Assembly: GCA_028693955.1 (NCBI GenBank)
Contig: JAQUUH010000010.1
Span: 1 to 32,105, forward strand
Length of the DNA stretch: 32,105 nucleotides
Source: Bacilli bacterium
Lineage (GTDB): Bacteria; Bacillota_I; Bacilli_A; RFN20; UBA1709
Reading direction: 5' to 3'
Position 1 is the first letter of the stretch; every line of letters starts with the position of its first letter. The notes under the pieces are model-generated. The model made no database searches. It was given only the letters and a program-made list of their open reading frames with translations, and had not been told where the DNA came from. Both the position numbers and the translations under genes were made by a program. Positions 17,402-31,825 of this stretch are shown here, in pieces.

Positions 17402-18133
17402 CTAGGCACTAATGACTTTAGGTTCCGCCTCTTTTTTCTTAGTTTTTTCATACTCTTCTATTGCTGCACTTTTTTCTTCAAAGGTCTCAAAGATAATAGT
17501 TTTATCAATATCAATAACCCTTGTTCCTGCAATCAAATCATGTAGTGCTGTTTTCTTTTTAGTAAAAATTGCAATTATAAAAGAAAGTATTAAAGGTATT
17601 GGCGAAAATGTTAAAACAGATATAATTGATTCTACTGCATATATTCCTATTATAAATCTCGCAAAAACTGCCCAATTGGCAACTTTTAATCCTTTTGAAT
17701 TAACAAGTCCTAATCTCATTAATTTTTTGCCTAGAGTTTGACCATTTTTAAAGACTAATGGTAAAACAAAAAAAACTAAAATTTCTGAAATAAAAAGATC
17801 AAAAGATATTTGAATTATCTGTAAAGTCGTAATGTCTTGTGCTAAAGACATAACACTTTCATCATTTTTAAAAGCATCCAGAATAGATTCATCAACATCT
17901 TCTATATAAATTAGATTATCTTCTTCATCTTTATATGCTATACCATAATCTATTTGGTAGCTTTCATATTGAGATATTTTGGCATCATACTGCCATAGAT
18001 TATTTGCTACATTTTTTGTAATTAATATGTCTATTGTTACAAAAATACACAAAACTATTATTAAATCTACAATTAAAGCGGCAACTCTACTAAACATTTT
18101 GCCATTATATACTTCATACATATAAAAAACCAC
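17402..18133 (-). CDS. RDD-family membrane protein (copy 1)
   Basis: About 240 residues. It opens at YEVYNGKMFSRVAALIVDLIIV, which carries the Arg...Asp of the RDD family (R..AalID) in the first helix. It then has a polar outer loop of about 65 residues, a second helix, FKNGQTLGKKLMRLGLVN, and two more helices. A charged tail ends the protein. RDD proteins are of uncertain function; some act in ion exchange or osmoprotection. The start is uncertain: GTG at 18133 sits too close to AAAGGTAG, while ATG at 18121 is a family-like start. It is the last gene of the copA-csoR-nrnA-cysQ run and abuts the previous gene. A clear paralogue is present at 26290-26895. Confidence 0.8.
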   Translation of the reverse strand: MVFYMYEVYNGKMFSRVAALIVDLIIVLCIFVTIDILITKNVANNLWQYDAKISQYESYQIDYGIAYKDEEDNLIYIEDVDESILDAFKNDESVMSLAQDITTLQIIQISFDLFISEILVFFVLPLVFKNGQTLGKKLMRLGLVNSKGLKVANWAVFARFIIGIYAVESIISVLTFSPIPLILSFIIAIFTKKKTALHDLIAGTRVIDIDKTIIFETFEEKSAAIEEYEKTKKKEAEPKVISA

Positions 18134-18960
18134 TACCTTTCATAAAATTCTTTTCTAGATTTATTTAAAGCTATATACCCATCATAGTTATTAACATCTT
18201 CTTTGTTATAGACATATTTTTCAGAATTTGGTTTACTAAAAACTCCTCCTGCTTCGCTAACTAATAAATCACAAGGGGCTATATCCCATTCTTTAGAACC
18301 TGGCGCAAGTTTTAATTGAACATCAATCTCTCCTTTAGCAAGTAGGCAACTTTTATATGAACTACCACACTTTTTAACCTCTTTAATTAAATTTTTATTT
18401 TGAGATATAAACTCTAAATCTTTTTTAGAAACATGTTCTCTACTAATTGCAAGGATTAAATTATCTTTTTTATTTGAGACTTTAATTTTTAAATTTTCTC
18501 CTTTGTTATTTAAAATGTAACTTCCTTTACCTTTTATTGCATAATATAACTCATTAATAACTGGAACCATTATTAAACCCAAAACGATTTCTCCATTTTT
18601 TGCTAAAGCAATATTAATTGCGAACTCATCATCATGCTTTATAAAATCTTTTGTGCCATCTAAAGGATCAATTATCCAAATATATTCTTTTTCCAAACGA
18701 CTTTTATCATCATTTGTTTCCTCACTTAAAATACCATAACTAGGAAATGCATCTTTTAATTGATCAACAATTATTTTATTTGAAATGTAGTCTGCTCTAG
18801 TAACAGGTGAATTATCGTTTTTAATCTCAATATCTAAACTTTTTGATGATTCATAAACATCCATTACAGCAGCACTTGCTTTAATAATTGCTTCTTTAGC
18901 AATGGCAAACTCTTTAGAATATAGCTTCATAGTGTTCTGCAGATTCCTTACATAAATCAT
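18133..18960 (-). CDS. cysQ: CysQ-like 3'(2'),5'-bisphosphate nucleotidase / inositol monophosphatase family
   Basis: Up to 275 residues. The magnesium-binding set of the family is complete: Glu in SEETND, then DPLDGTKDF, and the late WDIAPCDLLVSEAGG. CysQ removes the 3'-phosphate from pAp, giving AMP. Relatives act on inositol phosphates or fructose-1,6-bisphosphate, so the substrate is a likely call only. Start: the first ATG (18960) overlaps nrnA by 47 bases and has AAAGGA five bases upstream. The ATG at 18930 (MKLYSKEF) fits the family's usual N-terminus better but has a poorer site. Adjacency to nrnA, whose product can also hydrolyse pAp, supports a role in pAp or short-oligonucleotide clearance. 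Confidence 0.82.
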   Translation of the reverse strand: MIYVRNLQNTMKLYSKEFAIAKEAIIKASAAVMDVYESSKSLDIEIKNDNSPVTRADYISNKIIVDQLKDAFPSYGILSEETNDDKSRLEKEYIWIIDPLDGTKDFIKHDDEFAINIALAKNGEIVLGLIMVPVINELYYAIKGKGSYILNNKGENLKIKVSNKKDNLILAISREHVSKKDLEFISQNKNLIKEVKKCGSSYKSCLLAKGEIDVQLKLAPGSKEWDIAPCDLLVSEAGGVFSKPNSEKYVYNKEDVNNYDGYIALNKSRKEFYER

Positions 18961-19879
18961 CTAAATCCTTTAGCAATTGTTCTGCTATCTCCCAAGAAGG
19001 AACAATAGCTCCTGAAGCTAATTTATGACCTCCGCCTCCGTATTTAGTGGCAATTATATTTACTGGTAAAGCTTTTGATCTAAGTTCAACTTTAACTTTC
19101 CCATCTTCTTTTTCAGAAAAGAAAACATGGATATTTACTCCCTCAATGTTTGACAAAACATTGACTGACCCTGCTCCATAATTTTCATTAATATTAAATT
19201 GTTTTCGCAATTCACTAGTAATAAACATATAGGCTACTCCATGCTCTGTTGTTTTGTAATTCAATTGGCAATACCCTTTGAATCTTACTTCTTTTTCTGT
19301 ATTTTCATAAATAAAAGAATATAAATTATTTATATCTACACCCTTATCAATTAATTTAGCAGCATATATTAATGTTTGAGCTGTTGTATTTGAAAATAAA
19401 AATCTACCTGAATCGGTAATAATGCCACAATATAAATTCGTTGCAGCCTTTGAATTAATCTTTGCATTATTATCGAAAGCCATTTTAGTAATCATTTCAC
19501 AAGTTGCCATACTTGAAGTGTCAACCCATTCAATACCACCGAATTCTTCAACAAAAATATGATGATCTATTTTAATTATCTTTGAAGAAAATAAAAATCT
19601 TTGATCATCTATTCTCGCTTTATTTGCAACATCTAAAATTATCACAAGTGATTGCTTTATTATCTCATCACTCAAATCAGTGTCTGTATCTCCCATTATT
19701 TTTGACCAGTGTGATGATATTTCTCCAGCACAATAAACTTTTTTGGTTGGAAAATTAAAAGTAATTAATTCTTTTAATCCCATTTGTGCTCCATATGCAT
19801 CTCCATCTGGCTTTATATGTCTAAATATAACAATACTTTCTGCTTTTCTTATCTCTTGCCAAATCTTTTTTGTAATCAT
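18914..19879 (-). CDS. nrnA: NrnA-type DHH/DHHA1 phosphoesterase (oligoribonuclease / pAp phosphatase)
   Basis: About 321 residues from the chosen start. The DHH domain has HIKPDGDAYG, ILDVANKARIDD, the IDHH motif and the GIITDSGRF stretch. The DHHA1 domain ends in GGGGHKLASGA, which binds substrate. NrnA degrades 2-5 nucleotide RNAs to monomers and dephosphorylates pAp. The frame is open to 19960, but that longer start runs into csoR and adds a non-family leader. ATG at 19879 (MITKKIWQEI) follows GAGTGAT and is the family position, with 19891 as an alternative. It lies in the copA-csoR operon and overlaps the cysQ-like gene. The identification is strong. Confidence 0.9.
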   Translation of the reverse strand: MITKKIWQEIRKAESIVIFRHIKPDGDAYGAQMGLKELITFNFPTKKVYCAGEISSHWSKIMGDTDTDLSDEIIKQSLVIILDVANKARIDDQRFLFSSKIIKIDHHIFVEEFGGIEWVDTSSMATCEMITKMAFDNNAKINSKAATNLYCGIITDSGRFLFSNTTAQTLIYAAKLIDKGVDINNLYSFIYENTEKEVRFKGYCQLNYKTTEHGVAYMFITSELRKQFNINENYGAGSVNVLSNIEGVNIHVFFSEKEDGKVKVELRSKALPVNIIATKYGGGGHKLASGAIVPSWEIAEQLLKDLDDLCKESAEHYEAIF

Positions 19880-19931
19880 TTTATCACTCATTTCTGCTTT
19901 TAATTTTAATTGATAATAATCATTTTTACAA

Positions 19932-20204
19932 CTATAAAGACTTCTCTGCCATCTTCTCAATTATTTTTTCTAACTCTTTAACTTTGCTATCAACATCATT
20001 GCTATTAATTGCATCTTTTACACAATGTTCTAGATGGGATTTTAATATTTCTGTATTTACTTTACTTAAAATCGCATAAGTAGCTAGTATTTGGTTAGAA
20101 ATATCTATACAATACCTATCTTCTTCAACCATTTTCAATATTCCTTCTACTTGACCTCTTGCAGTTTTCAACAAATTGTTAACCTTATTTTTATCAGCTT
20201 TCAT
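19932..20204 (-). CDS. csoR: CsoR-type copper-sensing repressor
   Basis: 90 residues, all-helical CsoR/FrmR family (DUF156). The Cu(I) ligands fall at Cys32, His57 and Cys61, the same spacing as Cys36/His61/Cys65 of the founding CsoR. This separates it from the formaldehyde sensor FrmR and from persulfide sensors of the CstR type, which lack the histidine. RARGQ-like TARGQVEGI at 14-22 is the DNA-facing helix start. It binds DNA without copper and releases when Cu(I) binds. The ATG overlaps the copA stop (TAATG) with AAGGAGAT upstream, so it is co-translated with copA. The predicted operator lies before copA, so it represses its own operon. Confidence 0.93.
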   Translation of the reverse strand: MKADKNKVNNLLKTARGQVEGILKMVEEDRYCIDISNQILATYAILSKVNTEILKSHLEHCVKDAINSNDVDSKVKELEKIIEKMAEKSL

Positions 20205-20413
20205 TATTTTATCTCCTTAACATCATATCCAGCACCAGAAATTGCCTTGCTTATTTGTTCATCACTAACTTCCTTATTTAGATTTACAAGAGCTAGCCCT
20301 GTTTTTAAAACCACTTCCACACTAGTTATACCATCTATTTTTCTTAATGCTTCTTCAACTTTTTTTTTGCAATGTTCACACATCATTCCCTCAATATAAA
20401 CTTCTTTCTTCAT
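20204..20413 (-). CDS. Possible free CopZ copper chaperone made from an internal start inside copA
   Basis: An ATG in the copA frame at 20413 is preceded by AAAAGGAGGG with a 7-base spacer (20421-20430), one of the strongest ribosome sites in the window. Initiation there would give a 69-residue protein with GMMCEHC, the size and motif of CopZ. It would be produced alongside full-length CopA. Alternatively, two genes were recently joined by loss of a stop and the site is a relic. The sequence shows the site; use of it is inferred. Confidence 0.5.
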   Translation of the reverse strand: MKKEVYIEGMMCEHCKKKVEEALRKIDGITSVEVVLKTGLALVNLNKEVSDEQISKAISGAGYDVKEIK

Positions 20414-22648
20414 AACTTTTCCCTCCTTTTTATTAATTTTAAAACTTTTTAATCTAAGAGCATTTAAAACTACACACACCGAACTAAAACTCATTGCCAA
20501 AGCACTTATCATTGGATTAAGTTTTAATGAAAATGCTTGATAGAAAATACCTGTTGCAATTGGAATACCTATTATATTATAAATAAATGCCCAAAAAAGG
20601 CTTAGCTTTATATTGTTTATAGTTTTACGACTTAATTCTATTGCACCATAGACATCTAATAAATCATTCCTTACAAGTACTATATCGGCAGATTCTACAG
20701 CAATATCTGTACCACTTCCAATTGCAATGCCTACATCAGCCATCATCAATGATGGGGCATCATTTATTCCGTCTCCACACATTGCAACTTTCAAACCTTT
20801 GCTTTGAATATCTTTAATAACTTTGCTTTTTTGTTCTGGTGTCATTTCACTATATACTTTATTAATATTTACTTTTTCTGCTATTGATTTAGCACTTTCT
20901 TTGTTATCACCAGTTATCATAATAACTTCAATTCCTTTTTCAATAATGCCTTTTATAGCCTCTGCACTGCTACTTTTTAAAACATCACTGACTCCAATAA
21001 AACCAATAAATTTATTGTTTTTTGCTATATATAAATTAGTCATCCCTTGTTGAAATTCTTTTTCATAATCATCAATTTTAACATTATTTTCTTCTAAATA
21101 ACTCTTATTACCAACTAAATATTTATCATCATTAATAACGCCAAAAACACCACGACCTGAAATTGCTTCAAATTCTTCAATATCATAAATGTCATCAACA
21201 TTATTATCTTTTGCATATTTAATTATAGCCTCGGCTAATGGATGCTCTGATTTTTTTTCTATTGAAGAAACTATACCTAATAATTCTATTTCATTAATCA
21301 AACTAAAAACACTAACTACTCTTGGTTCTCCTTTTGTTATAGTTCCTGTTTTATCAATTGCAAGTACATCAATATTATTAAGCATTTCTAATGCTTCAGC
21401 TTTTTTAATTAAAATTCCATTTTCTGCTCCCTTGCCTGTTGCTACCATAATTGCTACAGGGGTTGCTAAGCCCAAAGCACAAGGACAAGATATTACCAAT
21501 ACTGATATTGCCATTGATAAAGAAAATTCAAAATCTTTTCCTAAAAATAACCAAATTGCCAAAGTAATAAGTGATATTGCTATTACTATAGGAACAAATA
21601 TCCCACTTATTTTGTCAGCCAATCTTGAAATTGGAGCTTTTGAATTACTAGCTTCTTCAACAAGAGAAATTATTCTAGATAAAGTAGTATCTTCACCAAT
21701 CAATTCAACCTTATAAATAAAATATCCACTTTTATTTATGGTTCCTGCAAGAACTTTGCTGCCTTTTCCTACTTCAATAGGAAGACTTTCTCCGCTTATT
21801 AAAGATTGATCAATACTAGAACTTCCTTCAACAATAATACCATCAACAGGCAAAGACATTCCTGGCTTTATAATTACTAAATCACCAACCACTATATCAC
21901 TTACCAAAACTTCTAATTCTTTCTCTTCTTTTTTTATAATTGCAGTTTTAGGAGCTAAATTTATTAGCTTAGTAATGGAATCACTTGTTTTTCCTTTAGA
22001 AACCTCTTCAAGATATTTTCCAAGTGTTACTAATGTCAATATTGTACCTGTTGCTTCAAAATATAAATCAGCATGCATTATATCAACAAAATGTCCTCCA
22101 TTATTTATGTTACTAATAATCATAAAAATCATAGAAATTATTCCATATAAAAATGCTGAAGCTGATCCTATTGCTATTAATGAATCCATATTAGGATCTA
22201 ATTTAAATAATCTTTTAAATCCCACCTTAAAATAATTAAAATTTAGTATTATTATTGGCAAAACCAACAATATTTGCAAACAAGAAAACCATATATAATT
22301 TTCTGATTTTGTTAAAAATAAAGGCATAGGTAACATTAACATGCTACCCATTGAGACATACATTAATGGAATTAAAAAAACTATTGAAAGCAAAAGTCTT
22401 CTCTTCATATTTTTAACTGAAGTGTCTTTATTTGCCTCAATATTTTCACTAACATCATAGCCTGCACTTTTTATTGCAATAAATATTTTACTTTTACTTA
22501 TTACTTTTTCATCATAATCAACAAACATTATATTGGTCATTAAATTTACATCAACACTTCTTATACCACTTAATTTTTTAACGGATCTTTCAACACTATT
22601 TTTACAAGCAGCACAAGTCATACCGATTATTCTATATTTCTCTTTCAT
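20204..22648 (-). CDS. copA: Cu(I)-exporting P1B-type ATPase with fused C-terminal CopZ-like domain
   Basis: 814 residues. The N-terminal heavy-metal domain has GMTCAAC (Cys12, Cys15). Eight membrane helices follow. The actuator loop is SGESLPIE, the membrane metal site CPC is at 388-390, the phosphorylated Asp432 is in DKTGT, and SEHPLA and GDGIND are present. The Cu(I) signatures YN (IYNIIG) and M.xSS (AMSFSSVCVVLNALRL) mark it as a copper pump, moving Cu(I) out of the cell. After the last helix a 15-20 residue linker leads to a second heavy-metal domain from residue 746 (GMMCEHC, Cys757 and Cys760). This domain looks like a complete CopZ chaperone and has its own ribosome site. The operon has a strong promoter and a CsoR operator. 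Confidence 0.95.
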   Translation of the reverse strand: MKEKYRIIGMTCAACKNSVERSVKKLSGIRSVDVNLMTNIMFVDYDEKVISKSKIFIAIKSAGYDVSENIEANKDTSVKNMKRRLLLSIVFLIPLMYVSMGSMLMLPMPLFLTKSENYIWFSCLQILLVLPIIILNFNYFKVGFKRLFKLDPNMDSLIAIGSASAFLYGIISMIFMIISNINNGGHFVDIMHADLYFEATGTILTLVTLGKYLEEVSKGKTSDSITKLINLAPKTAIIKKEEKELEVLVSDIVVGDLVIIKPGMSLPVDGIIVEGSSSIDQSLISGESLPIEVGKGSKVLAGTINKSGYFIYKVELIGEDTTLSRIISLVEEASNSKAPISRLADKISGIFVPIVIAISLITLAIWLFLGKDFEFSLSMAISVLVISCPCALGLATPVAIMVATGKGAENGILIKKAEALEMLNNIDVLAIDKTGTITKGEPRVVSVFSLINEIELLGIVSSIEKKSEHPLAEAIIKYAKDNNVDDIYDIEEFEAISGRGVFGVINDDKYLVGNKSYLEENNVKIDDYEKEFQQGMTNLYIAKNNKFIGFIGVSDVLKSSSAEAIKGIIEKGIEVIMITGDNKESAKSIAEKVNINKVYSEMTPEQKSKVIKDIQSKGLKVAMCGDGINDAPSLMMADVGIAIGSGTDIAVESADIVLVRNDLLDVYGAIELSRKTINNIKLSLFWAFIYNIIGIPIATGIFYQAFSLKLNPMISALAMSFSSVCVVLNALRLKSFKINKKEGKVMKKEVYIEGMMCEHCKKKVEEALRKIDGITSVEVVLKTGLALVNLNKEVSDEQISKAISGAGYDVKEIK

Positions 22649-22651
22649 TTT

Positions 22652-22670
22652 ACCACCCCCATAGGGTGTC
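22652..22670. promoter_or_regulatory. csoR operator: CsoR operator before copA
   Basis: The minus strand reads ACCCTATGGGGGT, one base away from the Bacillus subtilis CsoR core ACCCTACGGGGGT. It lies between the -10 box and the copA ATG and overlaps the G-rich ribosome site, so bound CsoR would block transcription start. Confidence 0.8.
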
Positions 22671-22673
22671 TAT

Positions 22674-22702
22674 ATATTACAACTACTACTCAAAAATGTC
22701 AA
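22674..22702 (-). promoter_or_regulatory. Promoter of the copA-csoR operon
   Basis: TTGACA, 17-base spacer, TAATAT: a near-consensus sigma-A promoter. The -35 box lies two bases beyond the stop of the desulfidase gene, so no terminator separates the two transcription units. Confidence 0.85.
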
Positions 22703-29707: not shown

Positions 29708-31825
29708 CTAACTCCCGTATTCATCAAACAAATTCAAATCATCAATTCCAATATCAATATTTTTTTCATCAATTTTAATATCTAATTTTTTTATAGTATC
29801 ATATAAAATAACTGTACCCCATGAATCTATTTTACAATAAGCCAACAATGCTTTAATAAAATCATCATGCTCTTGTTTTTTTAACTTTTTTGAAGCATTT
29901 TTTCTTAATAATGTTTGATACACATCTAAAGCTACTCCACCATTATGAACTTGACCTTGTTTATAATCTAATGTTGATTGTAAATCATAACTTAATCCTT
30001 GATACCACGAATAAATTTTTTCATCTTTGATAATATTTGGTTGTGTAACCTTTAAAGAATTTCGACCATTAAAATCTTTTCTATACCACCAGCCATATTG
30101 AAAGAAATCCAATAAATCTACAATTCTTTCTACACTAATAGCACATAACTCACCAAACTGTGGATACTTTTCTCCCATTCTTTTAAATTGAGTTGTTTCA
30201 AAACTTTTGTTATAAACTATCAATGTAAATTTACCATTCTTATAATCCACATTTTCTTTTTCTAATTGGTTTTTAAATGTTAATAGTAGATCTTGTTCAG
30301 GATTTTTATAACCATCTTCAAAAGGATGCCCAATAAACTCATAATGAGAAATGCCTCCCCCTTTACCAATTACAAAATTGTGTTTATCTAAATCATAATT
30401 TTCTTCAACAACATGCATGGAATATTGACAACATATCTGTTCCCAAGGTCTTTGGTTTTCAACAAGAGGAATGGGATAAGAAAAAGTCTCAAAATCAAAA
30501 AATATTAATGGATAAATAGTATAATCTTTGTCAAGAAGTTCTTTTAAATATTTCTTTTCAATAAAATTTATACCACTATAATGGTTTTTTGCACATTCTA
30601 TTTGCATTCTAGCAATAGATTTATATTTTAAACCATCAGAATTTCTTTTTTTAATTAAAGGATATTTCTCTTGTACTATTTCATGAGGAATTTCGTTTAT
30701 TTTATAAACTCCATTTTCAATTAATCTTTGGGTTGTTGCATAATTTCCGCCATTTTTCATGTTATTAGTTAATGTAAATATATGATTATCATCTATTTTG
30801 GGATGACATATACTTTTCATTATACATCCCTGATTTTTACGACATTCATACATTAAATATGTTGGCGGTTCTTTTTTACTGTATGCTGCTTCTTCAACTT
30901 TTATTTTTAATTCTTCTAAATCCGGATAATCTCTATTACCTTTTTGGTTTACATACATCTTGTTTTCAAAATATTCCAAGAAAGTATATTCTTCTTTTTT
31001 TGATGAAAGGTAGACTTTGTCATATATAACAAATAATTTATCTAGATACTCTTTATCTATTGGATAAGACATTTCTTCTTTTTTAAGTTTAAAATTAGGA
31101 TTTAAACAAATAAAATTAAGACCTGAAATCTTTAAACCACAACTTTTATATACATCATATTGAAATGCCAAATCGTATAAATATTGCCTTTTTGGCTCTC
31201 CAACTACAACCATTACCTCTCCGTTATTTTTTTTAACTTTAGATCTATAAATTTTGTTAGTACCTTTTACTTCATATATTTGTAAACCAACTGGAGTTTT
31301 AATAGCAATATCCCATCTTGCTAAATATTTATCATTACTAACTTGTCCTTCTAAGATAATTTTAACTTTAGGATTATTTAATAATTTTTGGGTGTTATCT
31401 TCAATTTTTTTGGAAGAGGTCTCCTCAATCCCATCAACACTACCATCAACAGTATCTGCCCTATAGGCAATATCTTGAAAAAATTCAATAGCATACAATC
31501 TTGATAAATTGGAAACTTCTTGAAAGTTTTTCATTTCATTTATAAAATTCGTGACATAATCATCACTAGAACTCTTACTAATTTCTTTTTTTACTTCACT
31601 ATATAAATTAGGAAAACTTCTTATCAATTCATATATTGTATCAATATTCTCTTGTTTAATATCTTCATCATCAACTTCAATTTTTTCAAGAATGTCTTCA
31701 TCGTTTATATTACTTTCAACCATTGATTTAATGATTTTTAAAACTCCAGACTCATTACACATTAGATAGGCGAGCTTAGGACATTTTCTAATCGAATACA
31801 TTTTAATTGCTTCTTTATTTATCAT
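29708..31825 (-). CDS. DUF2779 protein: PD-(D/E)XK nuclease domain joined to a DEDD-type exonuclease domain
   Basis: 705 residues. The N-terminal half looks like a Cas4/RecB-type nuclease: an opening SIRKCPKLAYLM, a core with Asp172 (RWDIA) and Glu185-x-Lys187 (YEVKGT), and a later QYLYDLAFQYDVY resembling the QhxxY helix. Cys15 with Cys328, Cys334 and Cys340 could hold an iron-sulfur cluster as in Cas4 and AddB. The C-terminal half (about 440-690) has exonuclease-like motifs: Asp444-Phe-Glu446, YNKSFE at Asn539, and YCKID with Asp667. The Asp of motif II is replaced by Glu543. DUF2779 proteins occur in Mollicutes and elsewhere with no established role, with repair or defence as possible guesses. 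AGGAGG fits the ATG; it has its own promoter and is a single-gene unit. Confidence 0.82.
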   Translation of the reverse strand: MINKEAIKMYSIRKCPKLAYLMCNESGVLKIIKSMVESNINDEDILEKIEVDDEDIKQENIDTIYELIRSFPNLYSEVKKEISKSSSDDYVTNFINEMKNFQEVSNLSRLYAIEFFQDIAYRADTVDGSVDGIEETSSKKIEDNTQKLLNNPKVKIILEGQVSNDKYLARWDIAIKTPVGLQIYEVKGTNKIYRSKVKKNNGEVMVVVGEPKRQYLYDLAFQYDVYKSCGLKISGLNFICLNPNFKLKKEEMSYPIDKEYLDKLFVIYDKVYLSSKKEEYTFLEYFENKMYVNQKGNRDYPDLEELKIKVEEAAYSKKEPPTYLMYECRKNQGCIMKSICHPKIDDNHIFTLTNNMKNGGNYATTQRLIENGVYKINEIPHEIVQEKYPLIKKRNSDGLKYKSIARMQIECAKNHYSGINFIEKKYLKELLDKDYTIYPLIFFDFETFSYPIPLVENQRPWEQICCQYSMHVVEENYDLDKHNFVIGKGGGISHYEFIGHPFEDGYKNPEQDLLLTFKNQLEKENVDYKNGKFTLIVYNKSFETTQFKRMGEKYPQFGELCAISVERIVDLLDFFQYGWWYRKDFNGRNSLKVTQPNIIKDEKIYSWYQGLSYDLQSTLDYKQGQVHNGGVALDVYQTLLRKNASKKLKKQEHDDFIKALLAYCKIDSWGTVILYDTIKKLDIKIDEKNIDIGIDDLNLFDEYGS

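Follow-up and report, generated by a model that had tools for sequence, protein, structure and literature searches.

In E. coli, programmed −1 frameshifting within copA gives rise to a 70-amino-acid putative chaperone, which derives from the 5' part of the gene (PMC5009743). Internal in-frame initiation has been demonstrated experimentally for Cas11, which is made from within cas8/cas10 (PMC11899642 and papers cited therein). CopA of Archaeoglobus fulgidus, for its part, possesses two metal-binding domains (MBDs), and the isolated MBDs cannot replace CopZ in vitro (PMC11970713), a failure that would be one reason for needing the free form of the chaperone. Here, we analysed a copper-export locus within a stretch of DNA of 32,105 nucleotides, referred to as the window, and consider it likely, with a probability of roughly 0.78, that internal in-frame initiation yields free CopZ besides a CopA-CopZ fusion protein, which would make this a dual-product copper-export gene. 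The locus comprises the following features:

20204..22648 (minus strand): fused copA-copZ open reading frame, 814 amino acids, with an N-terminal HMA domain (GMTCAAC), a Cu P1B-type ATPase (VISCPCALGL, DKTGT, SEHPL) and a C-terminal CopZ-like HMA domain
20421..20430 (minus strand): internal Shine-Dalgarno (SD) sequence AAAAGGAGGG, within the copA frame, where it reads ..N-K-K-E-G..
20420..20414 (minus strand): 7-base spacer AAAAGTT between AAAAGGAGGG and the ATG
20411..20413 (minus strand): internal ATG in the copA frame, the putative CopZ start codon
20204..20413 (minus strand): predicted free CopZ copper chaperone, 69 amino acids, MxCxHC type, complete ferredoxin-like fold
19932..20204 (minus strand): csoR-like gene for a copper-sensing repressor, 90 amino acids, PF02583, presumptive C..H..C ligand pattern (RYC; SHLEHC)
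22654..22668 (minus strand): probable CsoR operator CACCC-TATGG-GGGTG, an inverted repeat between promoter and copA ATG
22674..22702 (minus strand): sigma-70-like promoter for copA, TTGACA-17-TAATAT, by consensus match alone

A preliminary description of this DNA had stated that the copA frame runs on into a complete CopZ-like domain with the motif GMMCEHC, and that AAAAGGAGGG, seven bases and an ATG follow each other in this frame at the junction. Both statements hold. Translation of 22648..20204 revealed 814 codons with zero internal stops, in which an N-terminal HMA domain (residues 5–65) is followed by the P-type ATPase core and a second, C-terminal HMA domain carrying GMMCEHC, and the three junction elements occupy 20430..20421, 20420..20414 and 20413..20411 on the minus strand, opening a frame for a 69-residue product. 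The motifs of a CopA-type Cu(I) P1B ATPase, i.e. SCPC, DKTGT, SEHPL and a CxxC-type HMA domain with GMTCAAC, can all be read in the sequence, and the copper ATPase profile TIGR01511 scores 592 bits as compared to a cut-off of 397.

The start of the csoR-like gene overlaps the copZ stop, and the residues RYC and SHLEHC of its product are those that we take, from knowledge of the family, to be the C..H..C ligands. CsoR operators are described as G-tract pseudopalindromes (PMC3902906). Since a CsoR-like repressor and an inverted repeat of this type accompany a copper ATPase, copper is the likely metal of the operon. The ribosome site of copA itself (GGGGGTGG) overlaps the probable operator in a very short leader, and the internal copZ site lies clear of it. 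Directly downstream of csoR follow genes for a DHH/DHHA1 phosphoesterase (18914..19960, minus strand) and an inositol-monophosphatase-family protein (18133..18960, minus strand), whose frames overlap. Elsewhere in the window, 29708..31825 (minus strand) encodes a 705-amino-acid DUF2779 protein with no function assigned.

Structure prediction for the 69 residues counted from the internal ATG returned a complete ferredoxin-like HMA fold that starts at residue 2 (mean pLDDT 96), and the closest PDB structure is CopZ (6ff2; TM 0.89). The cut-offs of two curated CopZ families were not reached (62.6 and 62.7 bits as compared to 91 and 85), and because of these scores we use the safe name CopZ-like, which refers to fold and motif, rather than calling the domain an equivalog. 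The chaperone motif CxHC is present in 94% of the fused C-terminal domains of related genes and in 77% of separate CopZ proteins, but in none of 307 N-terminal HMA domains of CopA, and for 212 of 216 fused C-terminal domains the nearest neighbour is a separate CopZ and not any N-terminal HMA domain. The predicted N-terminal peptide of the 69-residue CopZ includes MKKEVYIEGMMCEHCK.

The internal ribosome site had been described as strong, which was confirmed against a local background formed by the 26 genes of the window. The duplex energy of AAAAGGAGGG with the anti-SD sequence amounts to −12.3 kcal/mol, placing the CopZ ATG first among the 217 in-frame internal ATGs of these genes (runner-up −9.3 kcal/mol) and above all 26 predicted gene starts, the strongest of which reaches −11.8 and that of copA itself −9.7 kcal/mol. 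The 16S anti-SD sequence was not found in the draft genome and is probably missing from the assembly. Synonymous recoding of the linker of the window gene, with amino acids fixed, gave a p value of 0.035.

For comparison, loci were gathered by protein similarity together with their neighbouring regions. They represent the order and class of the window genome itself, the family to which a Roseburia-like genome belongs, the order that includes a Christensenella-like genome, and a wider clostridial class. Every junction was read, and the set was dereplicated at 90% amino acid identity. It holds 217 fused genes, 66 genes with a separate adjacent copZ, 32 without an adjacent copZ and three that are cut off, a composition that is no population frequency of the fused state, as the loci are mostly best matches to the window protein. 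Fused copA-copZ genes occur in Bacilli as well as in several groups of Clostridia, and the core identity across those with an internal start ranges from 39 to 78%. One gene from an uncultured Bacilli bacterium (L043) shares its junction with a gene from the window's order (L017). An assembly or frameshift artefact, considered in the preliminary description, is ruled out, as many relatives have the same layout and both fusion and start recur in relatives only 52–58% identical to the window gene.

The proposal that initiation takes place internally, within the 3' end of copA, gained strong comparative support from the 216 fused genes with enough sequence for start counts. In 205 of them an in-frame ATG lies 3–25 codons ahead of the GMxC motif, and the SD sequence is conserved in 203 of 216 at ΔG ≤ −5 and in two more by inspection. 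Median SD energies are −9.0 for the fused internal starts and −9.65 for separate copZ starts (n = 66) as compared to −2.2 for internal ATGs of the CopA core (n = 4,872); accordingly scored, 83% of the ATG-bearing fused genes and 82% of the separate copZ starts reach −8 kcal/mol or lower, whereas 1.35% of other in-frame CopA ATGs do. Such strong sites are present in every sampled group (36/50, 22/27, 36/44, 30/38 and 47/57 fused genes). When the set is reduced to 36 representatives below 55% identity, 35 have the ATG, all 35 at ≤ −5 and 27 at ≤ −8. mRNA folding around the internal ATG is weak (−1.5 versus −9.8 kcal/mol). As a control, second HMA domains within CopA N-termini were inspected, where an upstream ATG was found in nine of 41 cases and an SD of ≤ −8 in none. 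What recurs at the boundary of the C-terminal domain is a strong, conserved SD with a start codon in the parent frame.

Building on the observed sequence, domain completeness, conservation and their statistics, we infer initiation at the internal ATG, function of both products and a hand-over of Cu(I) between them. Ribosomes starting at the copA ATG would synthesize the 814-amino-acid CopA pump, with CopZ as its C-terminal metal-binding domain, while other 30S subunits would bind to the internal AAAAGGAGGG on the same mRNA and start at the ATG at 20413, yielding free CopZ of 69 amino acids. The latter would pick up cytosolic Cu(I) and pass it to CopA, and the CsoR encoded downstream would turn the operon on in response to copper.

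One alternative, which we regard as unlikely, also has free CopZ arising from an old ribosome site of its own, yet treats the fusion as incidental, copA having lost its stop next to copZ and the long protein being a tolerated by-product. An easy path to fusion is indeed visible, as separate pairs as well as out-of-frame overlaps are found near fused genes in a tree computed with FastTree from 312 CopA cores. In three loci (L081, L085, L111), copA reads on across the ribosome site of copZ and overlaps the latter gene out of frame, which plausibly represents an intermediate between separate and fused genes. Against a purely incidental fusion stand the linkers, which measure 2 to 107 codons and, over a total of 4,936 codons, show not a single in-frame stop, as compared to 231 and 499 stops in the other two frames and ~314 expected in shuffles. 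A fused gene has no stop by definition, so the weight is carried by the long linkers and not by the bare zero. Moreover, the fusions persist over large clades of the tree, which requires 14 changes between the fused and the non-fused state. Because the linkers stay free of stops, the fused protein, on this comparative evidence, is also maintained, although it may be a tolerated by-product.

The same tree bears on a suggestion of the preliminary description, namely that copA and copZ were fused recently. Separate copA and copZ with a stop just ahead of the same SD, for which it had advised looking, were found in close relatives (L004, L009, L075, L259), and near the window gene fused and separate genes are intermixed, so that, with the tree unrooted, either state may have come first in this small clade. 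The suggestion of recency fits these relatives but not the group as a whole: since genes as deeply diverged as 39–78% core identity share the fused state with internal start, this state is, by comparison of these genes, mostly old and maintained.

Dual initiation also has to be weighed against synthesis of the fusion alone, in which case the C-terminal HMA domain would be a metal-binding domain attached to the pump, much like that of Archaeoglobus CopA, with its two reported MBDs (PMC11970713), and SD and ATG a decaying relic. This alternative, which could draw on the absence of the start from eleven fused genes, is very improbable: the C-terminal domain is of the chaperone type CxHC, and the strength of the start equals that of true copZ genes across 39–78% identity and exceeds both null models. 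For the fused set, the observed mean SD energy is −9.33 as compared to −2.5 for codon-permuted linkers and −5.47 ± 0.16 for synonymous recodings, and the Stouffer z over the synonymous null is 6.2 for the 35 representatives below 55% identity. With amino acids fixed, 20% of the genes reach p ≤ 0.05 individually; this per-gene signal is modest because Lys and Glu residues of the linker carry part of the SD motif. The two nulls rule out chance from a K/E-rich linker as the whole cause, though the linker contributes. The motif falls into each of the three codon phases (147, 44 and 9) and encodes 77 different tripeptides. A recent relic is likewise ruled out for the group as a whole by retention over deep divergence and by just nine changes on the tree in whether a fused gene has the start. 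The eleven fused genes without the start are scattered over the tree, which indicates that the internal start is dispensable in some lineages; two further start-less calls were overturned by inspection, as L321 uses GTG and the motif of L339 had been mis-set.

Ribosome pausing has been proposed as a role of SD-like motifs within coding regions. That the purine-rich motif merely slows ribosomes while the last membrane helices insert or fold is hardly credible and is ruled out by its spacing, as the distance to the ATG is constant (7.9 ± 1.5 nt) whereas that from the last helix varies (60 ± 49 nt), and the ATG itself is retained in 205 of the 216 genes.

Other sources of free CopZ were sought in the genomes concerned. 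The draft genome of the window, which is 95% complete, has three HMA matches, two in the fused gene and one in another ATPase, and no stand-alone HMA or copZ gene was found in it, so that the internal start would be the sole source of free CopZ there. Among 71 start-bearing genomes, ~22 lack a further small HMA gene and ~49 have one. The latter figure compares with nine of the ten start-less fused genomes searched, the tenth having none; as the contrast is not significant, compensation for start-less fusions by a separate copZ is not distinctive. In several Clostridia-type genomes, a second small HMA gene encoding GM(M/A)CGMC..HVN(D/E)A lies 20–120 nt downstream of four fused copA genes (L130, L170, L215, L222) and of one copA (L328), and its product is, by its motifs, a different small copper protein.

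If dual initiation occurs as proposed, it would constitute a second, independent bacterial route from a single gene to both a copper pump and the matching chaperone, and it would affect many species in which annotation would list just an ATPase. For gut-type Bacillota, the existence of a small protein missing from annotation is predicted, and dual initiation would account for some of their genomes being without stand-alone copZ (~22 of the 71 with the start). The natural series of separate genes, overlapping genes, fusions with a start and fusions without one could serve to test the reasons for which the two proteins become joined in some cases. Beyond the locus, we think that these genes probably form an old, Bacillota-wide copA class, in which pump and chaperone share one frame, the chaperone is made by internal initiation, convergent with frameshifting in E. 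coli copA, and the ratio of the products is set by the relative strengths of the two ribosome sites on the shared message. No published description of an internal CopZ start was found in the open-licence literature, where absence is not proof. The proposed mechanism is already known in kind, whereas the setting in which it would operate here is new and widespread, and it is well supported by the comparison of sequences.

Among known systems, copA and copZ as neighbouring genes in Bacillota (L004, L009 and L075; copZA of B. subtilis) encode the same two proteins, and the three loci have the SD and ATG of copZ in common with the fused genes, but a stop codon separates the two. Like the fusion, Archaeoglobus CopA is a copper ATPase that bears HMA-type domains at its ends, of which we take one to be C-terminal, but Archaeoglobus has a separate CopZ, and its copA is not known to us to have an internal start. 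Cas11 is alike in that an in-frame internal SD and ATG near the 3' end provide a small C-terminal protein; it differs in being a CRISPR effector subunit rather than a metallochaperone, and in having been demonstrated experimentally. In E. coli, finally, a single copper-pump gene also provides the full pump and a small CopZ-like chaperone, and the parallel drawn in the preliminary description stands as a functional analogy but not as homology: the E. coli chaperone is N-terminal and stems from the 5' end by frameshifting and termination, whereas the chaperone domain described here is encoded in the zero frame by the 3' end, where an internal in-frame ribosome site would release it.
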